A stretch of 64,000 nucleotides of DNA, taken from assembly GCA_945861435.1 (NCBI GenBank), contig CAMAUX010000001.1:62001-126000 (forward strand), read 5' to 3'. Below, piece after piece: positions 55,753-61,641 of the stretch. The stretch comes from Chthoniobacter flavus. Lineage in GTDB: Bacteria > Verrucomicrobiota > Verrucomicrobiia > Chthoniobacterales > Chthoniobacteraceae. The notes beneath the pieces are model-generated. The model was not told the origin of the DNA and did not search any database. It saw only the letters and a list, made by a program, of their open reading frames with translations. A program made the translations under genes and the position numbers. Every line of letters begins with the position of its first letter. Position 1 is the first letter of the stretch.

Positions 55753-56270
55753 ATCCGCCGGGGCTGCGGGACAGTTCCGAATGGCCCTTAGTGAAGGGCA
55801 TCGGCCATGCGTCGATGGATAATTCGGTCCGCGAAGCAGTCGCCCCTACCGCCACCATGCCGGAGGCATGGAAGCCAATAGCCGGTCGGTGTGCGCCATC
55901 CGCAAAGCGGATGCCGGGAACCACCGGATCGTGTTTCCCCGCGCGACGCGCCCCGGCATGGGGCGCGAGAAGGCTGATGATGGGAGAGAGTTGTGCCTGT
56001 CCTCATCAGATCCACTCATGGCATCCGTCTGCCTGCCGACGTCGCGCCCAAATACCACGGCGATGCCCCTTCACGAGGTGCAATTCGGGACACTTCCCGC
56101 TGGAGTATTCTAGGCAGCCCATTAAACCCGAAACATAGATTCGAACGCAGGCGGATTTCCTTTGATATCTCTTGGTTCTCATAGGAATCCCCGCGACACA
56201 CCACCCCCCCCACCGCCGGCAGGCGCATGAAGGCGTATTGATGCCTTGGAGCGCAGGCCTCCCTCCCACC
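55753..56270. repeat. 518-base gap with hairpin and dispersed palindromic repeat (copy 1)
   Basis: No gene is seen. A perfect hairpin GCCCTT-AGTG-AAGGGC lies at 55784-55799. A repeat copy at 55852-55983 (minus orientation) has internal palindromes such as CATGCC/GGCATG and TCCGCTTTGCGGA, and is homologous to 59213-59330 on the plus strand. The last ~130 bases before the next gene are AT-richer and probably hold its promoter, but I cannot name its boxes. Confidence 0.7.
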
Positions 56271-59141
56271 ATGAATCTCAGGACTCTCCTTGCCGTGCTG
56301 TTCCTTGCCGCAAGTTTACCCACACGCCATGTCGCGGCCCAGCTGGCGAACCAGCCACGTGAGGCGCTTTGGATCGAGGGGGCCGATGGGAGCGGGGCTT
56401 TTGAGGGACGGTTCGAACATCGTGGCAAGTTGTTGAAGGCCATCCTGCTCGTGGCCGCGGAACAGGCGGTGGAGGTTGAGTTGAACGGGCGTTCCATGGT
56501 GCGGGCGGGGGGATCGAAGGAGGCGGTTTCCATCGACGTCACCGCCGGGGTGAGGGAGGGGGCGAATGTGCTGAAGCTCACAGGGGCGGGGAAGGTCGCG
56601 GCACTCCTGGAGTTAAACGGCGATCTAGCCCGCAAGTCGTGGATCGCCACAGGCCCGGACTGGCTCACCCCGGCCGGTCCCGTCCGCGCGACGCCGATCG
56701 ACCCGGGTGCGAACCCTTTTGATTTCAAGAAGACCTTCGATGCCTACAACTCGTGGCAGCTCGCGAAAGCCGGCACGCAGAGTGAGGCTACCGACCCAGC
56801 ATCGATGAACGCGCCCGCCGGTTTTCGTGTGGAGAGGATGCGTTCGGCGATGGGCGAGGAAGGATCATGGGTGGCGATGGCGTTTGATCCAAAGGGGCGC
56901 ATCACCCTTGCACGCGAGAAGCGCGGGCTGCTCCGGTTCGATCCGGGGACGGGTGCGGTGGAGGTGATTGAGGATACCCTGCTCGAATGCCGCGGGCTGC
57001 TTTATGCTGACGGTGCGCTGTTCGCGAATGCAAACAACAGCAAGGCGCTCTATCGCCTCCGGGATTCGCGCGGGGATGGGCGGTTCGACGAGAAGACGGA
57101 GATCCTGCGGACCGGCGGGGGCGTCGGGCACGGCCGCAATCACGTGAAGCTCGGGCCGGATGGCTGGATCTACGTGGCGCATGGAAACAACGTGGTGCTG
57201 CCGGAGAATCTCTCCACCCGATCTTCGCTGCGCAATTACGCGGCCGACCAAGTGCTGCGCAATCCATGGGATGAGACGATGTTCGACGGCAATGTGGAAC
57301 TGCCCGCGGGGCACGTGTTGCGCGTGAAGCCGGATGGCAGTGAGGTGGAGTTGCTCGCGGGCGGATTGCGCAATCCGCTGGATGGCGCGTTCAACCGCGA
57401 TGGCGAGTTCTTCGTGTTTGATGCGGACATGGAGCGCGATGTCGGAGCCTCGTGGTACATGCCGACCCGCGTGCTGCATGTGGTGCCCGGCGCTGATTAC
57501 GGATGGCGTCGCGGTACGGGACGTCAGCCTGCCTGGTATGCCGACACGCTTCCCAGTGTGGTGGACGTGGGCCTGTCTTCGCCCACGGGGGTGTTCTTCG
57601 GGTACGGCGCAAAGTTTCCCGCACGCTATCAGGATACGCTGTTCTGCCTCGACTGGGCGTATGGCCGGATTCTTGCCGTCACGCTCGGAGCGCGCGGAGC
57701 AAGCTACGAAGGGGTGCAGGAGACGTTTGTGAGCGGTCGTCCGTTGAATGTCACTGATGGCTGTATCGGTCCGGATGGAGCCCTGTGGTTTATCACCGGC
57801 GGACGGGGCACGCAGAGCGGACTTTATCGCGTCTCGTGGACGGGCGGTGCGGAGGCTGCGTCCGCTCCGCAACCCCTCACGGCCGCACAGCTGCTGCGCC
57901 GCAAAATCGAGCAGGGACGGGCGACGGAGGAGGAGGTGCATCTTGCGCTGGCTGCTGAGGACCCGTTCCTCCGGCACGCAGCGGTCCGGCATCTGGAGCG
58001 CACGGGTTCGATGCCGGCACGCGAACAGCTCACGCGCTTCACCGGCGGGTGGGAGGCGATTTCCCGCTGGCTCGTTGCCGTTCGTTCAGGGCAGGCGGAT
58101 CTGAGGGAGACCGCGATGAGGGCGGCGGTCCGAATGCCGTGGGAAGAGAGTTCCCCGTCACAGCGGCTCGCGAGTCTGCGGATCCTCGGGATTGGGATGG
58201 CGCGGGGCGGAACATCGGCGGACGCGTTTGCGGGTGAATGCCGGGTCCTTCTGGAGCCCCGGTTTCCAGCCCGCGAGCCGCGGCTCGACCGCGAACTTTG
58301 TGCGCTGCTGGTCGCTTTGAAATCGCCGCAGGTGATCGCGAAGGCGACGGATCTGCTCCGGAACGCGACGACCTCGGAGGATCTGGTCTTCTATGCGATG
58401 CAGCTGCGTTACCTCCGGGAGGGATGGACGCCGGAGTTGCGGCGTGTGGTCTTCGAGGCGCTCAACCGGGCCGAGGGATTCAATGGGGCGAGTGCTTATT
58501 TCAAAGTGATCGGGGACACGCGGAACGAGTTCGCGTCCGCGCTCTCGGCTGAAGAAGCGACACAGCTGTCGGGTGTGATTCATCCGCCCAAACCGGTGCA
58601 ATTGCTCGCGCACGCGCTTCCGGGGCACACGTTCAAGAACTGGAAGCTGGAGGATCTCGCGCCCCTGCTGGCCGGGGTGTCCAAGGGGCGTTCGTTTGAG
58701 AAGGCGCGGGCGTCGCTTGTCAGTGCGCAATGCGTATTCTGTCATCGCGTGAGTCAGGATCCCTCGATACCGGCGGGGGTTTTTGGTCCCGACCTCACGC
58801 AGGTGTCCGCGCGTTTCGGCCGGCTGGATCTGCTGCGTCACATTCTCGAGCCTTCGTTGGTGATTGATGAGAAGTACCGCAGCGTCGTCGTGAAGACGGT
58901 CGATGGCCGCGAAGTGGGCGGCACGCTGGAGAGCGAGGACGACGAGCGGGTGGTGCTCAAGCCGAACCCGCTTTCACCCGCGGTCGTGGAGATCGCCAAG
59001 GCGCAGATTCGGGAGCGCCGTGTGTCGGATGTGTCGCCGATGCCGGCTGGATTGCTCAACGCCCTGAAGGCGGAGCAGATTCTCGATCTGCTGGCGTGGT
59101 TCGAGGCGGGGGGAGACGCAGCCGGGGCTGCGTGGAAGTAG
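56271..59141 (+). CDS. Large secreted propeller protein with C-terminal heme (Pirellula/Verrucomicrobium-type) domain
   Basis: A 956-residue protein with signal MNLRTLLAVLFLAASLPTRH. Residues ~40-130 form a small sandwich; the propeller of the 'membrane-bound dehydrogenase' type runs from ~180 to ~530 (AMAFDPKGRITLAREKRGLL, GHGRNHVKLGPDGWIYVAHG, GLRNPLDGAFNRDGEFFVFD, DGCIGPDGALWFITGGRG); helical HEAT-like repeats follow (~540-780). The C-terminal heme domain has CVFCH at 821-825, GVFGPDLTQVSARF and a distal Met candidate in VSDVSPMPAGLLNAL. A sugar- or alcohol-oxidising quinoprotein-like role is the family suggestion. Related repeats lie on both sides in opposite orientation. Confidence 0.9.
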   Translation: MNLRTLLAVLFLAASLPTRHVAAQLANQPREALWIEGADGSGAFEGRFEHRGKLLKAILLVAAEQAVEVELNGRSMVRAGGSKEAVSIDVTAGVREGANVLKLTGAGKVAALLELNGDLARKSWIATGPDWLTPAGPVRATPIDPGANPFDFKKTFDAYNSWQLAKAGTQSEATDPASMNAPAGFRVERMRSAMGEEGSWVAMAFDPKGRITLAREKRGLLRFDPGTGAVEVIEDTLLECRGLLYADGALFANANNSKALYRLRDSRGDGRFDEKTEILRTGGGVGHGRNHVKLGPDGWIYVAHGNNVVLPENLSTRSSLRNYAADQVLRNPWDETMFDGNVELPAGHVLRVKPDGSEVELLAGGLRNPLDGAFNRDGEFFVFDADMERDVGASWYMPTRVLHVVPGADYGWRRGTGRQPAWYADTLPSVVDVGLSSPTGVFFGYGAKFPARYQDTLFCLDWAYGRILAVTLGARGASYEGVQETFVSGRPLNVTDGCIGPDGALWFITGGRGTQSGLYRVSWTGGAEAASAPQPLTAAQLLRRKIEQGRATEEEVHLALAAEDPFLRHAAVRHLERTGSMPAREQLTRFTGGWEAISRWLVAVRSGQADLRETAMRAAVRMPWEESSPSQRLASLRILGIGMARGGTSADAFAGECRVLLEPRFPAREPRLDRELCALLVALKSPQVIAKATDLLRNATTSEDLVFYAMQLRYLREGWTPELRRVVFEALNRAEGFNGASAYFKVIGDTRNEFASALSAEEATQLSGVIHPPKPVQLLAHALPGHTFKNWKLEDLAPLLAGVSKGRSFEKARASLVSAQCVFCHRVSQDPSIPAGVFGPDLTQVSARFGRLDLLRHILEPSLVIDEKYRSVVVKTVDGREVGGTLESEDDERVVLKPNPLSPAVVEIAKAQIRERRVSDVSPMPAGLLNALKAEQILDLLAWFEAGGDAAGAAWK

Positions 59142-59699
59142 GGCGACGATGCGATCCGGCCGAGGCCTGTAGACGATAGGGAACGGCGGAGGTTTCTCTT
59201 GTCATCATCCTTCTCGCTCGCCCAGCCCGGGGCGCATCGCGTGGGGAGACGCGATCCGGTGGTTCCGTGCGTCCGCGTTGCGGACTGCGATGACCACCGG
59301 CTAATTTCTCCCATGCCTCCGGCATCGCGGTGTCGCGAGAGCGTGTTTCTTGTCCTGATCTCTCAACAAAGAACGACGGGTGGCCTCAACCTAAAAGCGC
59401 GCATGGCCGTCCCGAAAACGGGGGCACGCGTTTCAAACGCAATGTTTTACGACGGACTGGATTGCCACCCAATGAGTTCAGTGCGGAGCAATGCGAATTT
59501 CCTGCCTTTGAACGGCTTCCGTTTCGACGCCTCGCCCGATCGCGTTTTTAGGCTCAACGCAGTGCCATTCGGGACGGATGATCTGTACTTACGCGAACCT
59601 GCGCCTTGGTTTGTGCGGCCTGTGAATTGAGGTGAGGAGGGCGAGGTCGAGTTCCTCGGAACGCGCCGCGCCGGTCGCGTGAGTCGCTTGGGTGTCTTG
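59142..59699. repeat. Gap with dispersed palindromic repeat (copy 2)
   Basis: A 558-base gap. The stretch 59213-59330 is the plus-oriented copy of the repeat at 55852-55983; shared blocks include GATCCGGTGGTTCC, the GCGGA palindrome, CACCGGCTA and CCATGCCTCCGGCAT. The rest (59331-59690) is AT-richer than its surroundings and has only chance-like short frames. Confidence 0.7.
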
Positions 59700-59816
59700 C
59701 TATTTTTTTGGCGCCCCGATGCCACGCTCCTTGAGAATGGCACCCCAGTACTCACTTCCTTCCAGACGATCCTTGAAATCCTTTCTGAAGATCTCTTTGC
59801 CTGGTTTGATTTTCGG
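59700..59816 (-). pseudogene. Cut-off C-terminal codons of the next gene
   Basis: In the same frame as the gene at 59817-60932, 38 good codons follow its TAG (PKIKPGKEIFRKDFKDRLEG ... ILKERGIGAPKK) up to a second TAG at 59700. The text continues the style of the protein without a break, so the TAG at 59817-59819 most likely replaced a TGG (Trp). Confidence 0.75.
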
Positions 59817-60932
59817 CTAGACGGCGTCAAAGAACGTCCACGCCTCCTTCTCGTTGCCGGTGTAGATGAGGTCCAGCATTGTCCCCCAGAATAGCTTGGT
59901 CGGTTCATCCGCATGTAAAAGTTGGTCGCCGAATTCACGCGACTCCCCCTCGTATGGATAGCTGCCCATAGCCGCTCTCGCCTTGGCAGCCATCGCCTTG
60001 AGTTTGGCCGGTGCAGGGGCAGGTTTCTTCATCGCCGAAAAACTCGGCCGCCAGTCGCCGTTTTTGAATTCGAGTACGACGGGAGGGAAGGGGGATCCCT
60101 CGAAGACGTTGTTCCAGCGCCTATAGCTGGCGTCCCCGGTTGACAGGAACAAACCTCCGCGTGGATTGACGCGGTCAGGACCTATAGGGCAGTCAACATT
60201 TGAAAGAACCGGTCTCTGGATGACCCGATCGCCAAGTTCGTAGAAATGATAGCCGAACCCGGGATGCGAAAGGCCCGACACAAAGCGTCCAATTGCGACG
60301 TCGGGCACTCCATCTCCGGTCTTGTCCTGCGTTTTCCAGAGCAAGGCCTGCTTGTCCTGAGCTTCTGCAATCACAGAGATGGAAGCATCGCATCCGAGGT
60401 CCAATAAGTCTGCACCGGTGCAAAGGTAAACCAGCCGCTTCCCGCTTTTCAGGATCTCTGCCCATGACCCTTGTGGCTCGTTGGAGGAATAGACATTAAT
60501 CGCGTATCCGTTCACCTCGCGGGTCGAGGTCCGCTTGCTTCCTTCTGGCAGTGCGAACTGATTGGACACGGTCGCCTCAAACTTGCGGGGCGCAGACTGT
60601 TCCGCTTCCGGTTCGTACTTGGACCTTATCGTCCGGAAGACGTACCTGCCGTTTTGGGGAAGAATGAGTGCGGGCAATACATCAGGGCCCTGTGCATCGA
60701 GGAGGTCCCTGCCGTCCGGTGCGCGCAGTTCGAATGTGTTGAATTCGTATCTGTCGCCCTGTCGGAGTTCCCAGTAATCGCCCTGTTTTCCCTCGAAGCT
60801 GAACTCCTTGGTCTTCCCCGGAGGAACCGTGAATTCGAGGGGGGCGTTGAACTGGAGGGGTTCGGGTTTTTCTGCAGGGGCAGAAACCAGAAGTGCTGCG
60901 AGGACTGCAGGCAGGCAGAGGAGCGTTTTCAT
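59817..60932 (-). CDS. Secreted protein of unknown family, ended by an early TAG
   Basis: A 371-residue protein with signal MKTLLCLPAVLAALLVSAPA. The first part (LEFTVPPGKTKEFSFEGKQG ... YEFNTFELRAPDGR) is a beta-rich secreted domain; the middle has TGDGVPDVAIGRFVSG, like an FG-GAP/VCBS-type strand. I do not recognise the family. It ends at a TAG but 38 in-frame codons of protein-like sequence follow to 59700, so the native product is probably 410 residues. The start at 60932 was chosen for its signal peptide. Confidence 0.75.
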   Translation of the reverse strand: MKTLLCLPAVLAALLVSAPAEKPEPLQFNAPLEFTVPPGKTKEFSFEGKQGDYWELRQGDRYEFNTFELRAPDGRDLLDAQGPDVLPALILPQNGRYVFRTIRSKYEPEAEQSAPRKFEATVSNQFALPEGSKRTSTREVNGYAINVYSSNEPQGSWAEILKSGKRLVYLCTGADLLDLGCDASISVIAEAQDKQALLWKTQDKTGDGVPDVAIGRFVSGLSHPGFGYHFYELGDRVIQRPVLSNVDCPIGPDRVNPRGGLFLSTGDASYRRWNNVFEGSPFPPVVLEFKNGDWRPSFSAMKKPAPAPAKLKAMAAKARAAMGSYPYEGESREFGDQLLHADEPTKLFWGTMLDLIYTGNEKEAWTFFDAV

Positions 60933-61314
60933 GGATGTGACTGTTGGGTTGGCGCTGCTGAGTGAGGGGTGATCGCGCGTGTCTGAAAAGTGTATGAAGT
61001 GCACTGGACAGCTGTTGTGTGTTTTACATTGCGGCACCGTTGGCGTCACTGGGAATCCCGCGGTCATCGGGGAAGGTTCCGGCGCGATGGACGCGGCTGT
61101 TCGTGAGTGCCAGCGGCGGGCCTGTCCGCTGGATGGCGGGATCTTGCCGACGGCGAGTCCCAAGGTGGGGGCTGCGTTGCGCCGCGACCGGTGAGGGCTG
61201 GGTTCGGCGCGCTTCGTGGGATGGCGGTCAGGGCCTCTGGAACCGCATTTCCGAGTGGATGAAAGGCTGGGCCCGCTTATGTCCCAAACAGAACAGGCCC
61301 GGGCGTGGCGGTGG
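60933..61314. other. 382-base gap, nothing seen
   Basis: No repeat, RNA or convincing frame. The minus-strand frame through it is an extension of the secreted-protein gene without family sense. Confidence 0.5.
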
Positions 61315-61641
61315 CTAGTGCAGCGGGACGCCCGATTTTGCAAGGAATCGGAGCACACCGCTGGCCAGCCACAGGAGCGCGGAAACCGTCGCCAGCATGC
61401 CCATCCCGATGATCATCGCTTTGCGGAAGGGAAGGACGCGTCCGCCGCGCCAGCGGGCGAAGAGCGCGGCAGCGAGCGCCACGTGCGTGACGCCGGACCA
61501 CGGGTGACCGGGGGGCCATCCACCTTTCCATCCGGAGAGGGAGTAATTCACCACCACCGCAAAGAGCGAGACACAGGCGGCCGCGAGAAGAGGCCAGCCG
61601 GAAGGACGCGCGGGCTCGGGTGTGAGAGAGGGATTGTTCAT
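61315..61641 (-). CDS. Small membrane protein
   Basis: A 108-residue protein starting MNNPSLTPEPARPSGWPLLA with three probable membrane segments (WPLLAAACVSLFAVVVNYSL, GVTHVALAAALFARW, AMIIGMGMLATVSALLWLAS). No family is recognised. It lies downstream of matB on the same strand (149-base gap), so it could be the last gene of the malonate operon or independent. Confidence 0.65.
   Translation of the reverse strand: MNNPSLTPEPARPSGWPLLAAACVSLFAVVVNYSLSGWKGGWPPGHPWSGVTHVALAAALFARWRGGRVLPFRKAMIIGMGMLATVSALLWLASGVLRFLAKSGVPLH

Follow-up and report, generated by a model that had tools for sequence, protein, structure and literature searches.

A conserved tryptophan codon reads TAG in a probably accessory gene of Chthoniobacter flavus: a likely recent nonsense mutation

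The window analysed here is a stretch of 64,000 nucleotides from Chthoniobacter flavus (assembly GCA_945861435.1, contig CAMAUX010000001.1, positions 62,001 to 126,000). On its minus strand, a reading frame starts at the ATG at 60932, runs through a gene body of 371 codons (59820-60932) and meets an in-frame TAG at 59819-59817, at the place of residue 372. It continues for 38 sense codons (59816-59703) up to a second TAG (59702-59700), which is likely the ancestral stop as read from the sequence. Across the 410 codons there is no sign of a further stop or of a frameshift beyond the TAG at codon 372. The same frame runs upstream to 61358 in the list of open reading frames; the ATG at 60932 is the likely start codon, rather than an extension to 61358. 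Re-reading of the minus strand confirmed the coordinates, the in-frame TAG and the second TAG at 59700 that a first-pass annotation of the window had given.

The protein encoded by this frame combines a beta-rich domain, which bears a TGDGxPDL-type motif, with a helical end at the C-terminus. The N-terminus after the ATG at 60932 is hydrophobic and, judged by eye, resembles a Sec signal peptide. This N-terminal stretch has no counterpart in the relatives that we found, and the conserved domain starts around residue 130. The window protein gave no match in Pfam, NCBIfam, PADLOC or the PDB sequences. Its sequence features suggest that the interrupted gene probably encodes an exported protein of unknown function.

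The gene faces a convergent neighbour at 56172-59141, which matches the putative heme-binding domain model TIGR02603 above the cut-off (74.7 bits) and the PVC-type CxxCH model TIGR02604 below the cut-off; its own stop is also a TAG. Between the two, at 59388-59552, lies a dispersed MITE-like repeat of 165 bases with the terminal inverted repeats CCTAAAAGCGCG ... CGCGTTTTTAGG. It is located downstream of the interrupted gene and does not break it. The loci compared gave 14 matches to this repeat at 80-93% identity; two of these recur because L085 and L087 overlap, and in these two loci a pair of copies stands in tandem. A second dispersed repeat, present in larger numbers and with identities of up to 90%, occupies approximately 59171-59350, contains an ATGCC-TCC-GGCAT hairpin and has an inverted copy at approximately 55852-55962. 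For the stretch carrying both repeats, the genome yielded at least 69 matches, counting the window, with 40 of 187 candidates scored.

The first-pass annotation had described the frame beyond the TAG as open and protein-like. Openness by itself is no more than chance would give: 10126 of 18254 frames of 38 codons sampled on both strands of this window (55%) were free of stops, so that an open tail alone proves nothing and homology has to decide. Likewise, at least 38 open codons follow the stop in 26 of the 42 long ORFs ending in TAG, a set of mechanically called ORFs that includes the interrupted one. The protein-like character of the tail, on the other hand, was borne out by comparison with homologues. 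Of the distinct homologous loci, 12 reach the site and all of these extend past it, and a profile built from their 12 tails alone scored the window tail at 19.2 bits (hmmsearch, with the site entered as X). The best value was 9.2 bits for shuffled tails (4594 scored of 5000 made) and 5.9 bits for the other open segments of 38 residues in the window (n=2360). This indicates, from sequence comparison, that the tail beyond the TAG is homologous and not merely open.

Alignment across the site placed a tryptophan at the position of the TAG in each of the 12 loci (L003, L004, L005, L010, L011, L012, L013, L014, L015, L018, L067 and L068), directly followed by a proline in ten of them. The conserved Trp and tail proposed by the first-pass annotation were thus recovered. 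It had also named orthologues ending at the same place as the observation that would speak against its reading; we looked for them, and none of the 12 carries a stop at this position or ends there. With a homologous tail and a Trp in the homologues, a change of a Trp codon to TAG appears to be the simplest history.

Each stretch of DNA was counted once: L064, L065 and L066 are the same DNA as L003, L005 and L010, and L018 and L020 overlap within a single decayed copy. L006, L007, L008, L016, L017 and L109 were excluded from the Trp count as weak or as not covering the site. L014 holds the C-terminal part of the domain only, and the other frames of at least 40 residues in this locus gave no profile match. 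L010 to L015 and L018 (7/12) were found with a profile that reads the window TAG as Trp, which could favour relatives bearing the tail; L003 to L005 were also found with the TAG read as Trp. L067 and L068 were found with a profile made from three relatives alone.

The family to which the protein belongs is small and scattered. Neither the other 39 genomes of the bacterial family nor the other 212 genomes of the order gave a relative at E <= 0.001, and the genome itself holds one copy, plus a weak match of 53 residues at E 0.36. In the phylum sample (387 genomes), five other genomes matched at E <= 0.01, of which three were convincing; in the class sample (384 genomes), eight other genomes matched at E <= 0.001, the C-terminal region being present in six. 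The profile scan of the genome_contigs set gave five loci, three already known; the scan of the same set with the single protein returned 21 stretches and no relative. A second search of the phylum, for which the profile was enlarged, yielded no further locus reaching the TAG site, and the plasmid search gave no match. The members come from Verrucomicrobiota (Kiritimatiellae, Pontiellaceae, Verrucomicrobia) and, more distantly, from bins labelled Omnitrophota and Nanoarchaeota, labels that may be wrong.

When four relatives were scanned against Pfam, two showed FG-GAP_3 in the conserved domain, below the cut-off only. In L005/L065, from a Pontiellaceae bin, the conserved domain forms a fusion with a preceding FGE-sulfatase-type domain; in L067 its fusion partners are PEGA domains. 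Another genome of the class, the one that carries L018/L020 (G431 C5), has a decayed second copy there, in two frames and with parts missing, besides the open-frame copy L010.

A single copy in the source genome, and no relative in the searches of the family (39 other genomes) and the order (212 other genomes), fit an accessory and dispensable gene that was probably acquired from outside the order. For the adjoining AMP-binding gene, too, the three other genomes of the genus gave no match at E <= 1e-100. Third-position G+C was 0.66 in the gene body and 0.55 in the 38-codon tail, which is too short to read much into, compared with a median of 0.74 for long ORFs; these lower values lend weak support, at the level of composition, to a foreign origin.

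What the stop would remove was evaluated on AlphaFold models. The model of L064, an intact relative, has a mean pLDDT of 77.9 and combines the beta-rich domain with the helical end; Trp266 directly follows the helix 255-265, and two helices lie beyond it, at 273-286 and at 290-301; over residues 273-301 the pLDDT block means are 86-92. The window protein read through the TAG was modelled with a mean pLDDT of 50.1, and this model was used for the C-terminal helices only: past the TAG it has helices at 379-391 and 396-403, with block means of 78-83 and of 58 for the last ten residues. According to these models, the TAG removes the last 38 residues, predicted to form the two final helices of this end, and the shortened product would therefore probably be misfolded, degraded or inactive. 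With the L064 model, Foldseek gave nothing at E <= 0.001; its best hit, an integrin, had E 1.2e-3 and a TM-score of 0.26. Among the VIA rows for this model, PliI lysozyme inhibitors came first (Z 8.8 and 8.7 over 94-95 residues), but other beta folds followed closely at Z 8.5 to 8.0, and we claim no fold family.

The state of the rest of the gene was assessed at conserved columns, defined by an agreement of at least 75% among the other full-length members. The window body departs from 10 of 28 such columns. Among the ten others the figures run from 2/24 up to 13/31, and L015 alone exceeds the window in share, which places the window second among the 11 members. In the tail, the window departs at 0 of 2 conserved columns. 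The sequence thus shows no clear sign of long decay. The comparison is a coarse one, however, and places the window copy with the more divergent members. An otherwise open frame and a tail that keeps its likeness to the relatives make a recent change probable; conservation of the tail would also fit a stop that is tolerated.

The first-pass annotation had listed readthrough beside a null mutation and a sequencing error. One form of this alternative is that the TAG is leaky or programmed, so that some ribosomes pass it and both the short and the full-length protein are made, with the tail under selection. The conserved tail agrees with such a scheme. PMC7918605 holds readthrough of in-frame stops to be frequent in prokaryotes, and PMC11126739 reports that, depending on context, it can reach 80% in stressed E. 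coli. However, TAG is an ordinary, routine stop in this genome: it terminates 42 of 200 long non-overlapping mechanical ORFs (348,240 bases) and 30 of 112 ORFs of at least 400 codons. The prfA gene, encoding RF1, is present (461.6 bits against a cut-off of 423.25), and among the 41 tRNAs found by ARAGORN none reads UAG (anticodon CUA); all anticodons are ordinary, and one tRNA-Trp (CCA) is included. This set is probably incomplete: genome completeness is about 96%, and ARAGORN assigned no tRNA-Ile among the 41. The PylS model reached 30.9 bits, below its cut-off of 178.15; in control genomes it gave matches in 13 of 14, one above the cut-off. The RNA 3′ of the TAG folded no better than its shuffles (z -0.81, 40/200 as good), and no Rfam family reached threshold at 59000-61400. 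Moreover, the base after the TAG is a C, whereas the E. coli account in PMC11126739 has a following G favouring readthrough and Tyr, Gln and Lys inserted at TAG rather than Trp. The TAG is also shared by none of the 12 homologues. UAG reassignment, suppression or programmed readthrough is therefore not supported, and we consider a leaky or programmed stop highly improbable. The narrower proposal that a TAG tolerated in this lineage leaks through near-cognate tRNAs, so that less of the exported protein is made in full length and selection keeps the tail, deserves the least credence of all.

Two further explanations were weighed. The TAG might stem from an error in base calling or assembly, or be a minority variant picked by the assembler, the gene being intact in the organism. 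The base call rests on one draft assembly of 105 contigs, and the TAG is the sole lesion in an otherwise open and well-matching frame, as this explanation would have it. Against it, consensus errors from short reads are rare. In-frame stops are also common in real genomes according to PMC7918605, and we consider an error unlikely. Alternatively, the short form of 371 residues could be functional and the tail dispensable in this lineage: the body is open and within the range of divergence of the ten other full-length members. This is difficult to reconcile with the loss of a Trp found in 12 of 12 homologues, none of which ends here, and with a predicted loss of helices that belong to a confidently modelled end; we regard it as improbable. 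We consider it most likely, with good confidence, that an accessory gene recently underwent a nonsense mutation. The null or truncating mutation among the alternatives of the first-pass annotation is hence the one favoured, and systematic readthrough or recoding the one that found no support.

The events under the nonsense reading would be as follows. The gene, probably acquired from outside the order, would have had its Trp372 codon mutated to TAG, cutting off the last 38 residues, and the short product would be misfolded, degraded or inactive, with loss of function as the probable outcome. The mutation would be recent, and the nonsense allele may be fixed or may still be segregating in the population. 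In-frame stops in bacterial genes are described as widespread and mostly short-lived in PMC7918605. The same survey argues that many of them are not pseudogenes, on the grounds of dN/dS below 1 and of frequent readthrough, which counts against a nonsense pseudogene here. The window gene resembles the bacterial nonsense pseudogenes and null alleles of the kind surveyed in PMC7918605 by its single in-frame stop, its otherwise open and alignable frame and a tail like that of its relatives; it differs in that no close relative was found, carrying either the same or the intact codon. With UAG recoding (pyrrolysine, amber suppression) or readthrough it shares an in-frame UAG followed by a conserved tail, but here PylS stays below the cut-off, no tRNA for UAG was found, RF1 is present and TAG is used as an ordinary stop.

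The phenomenon is ordinary, and there is no sign of a new reading of the code. A guess about a single codon, made from the sequence alone, proved right and could be tested by homology. As a side product, the analysis brought together a small protein family, with a window member outside Pfam, NCBIfam and the PDB sequences, that is marked by a conserved Trp and a helical end.
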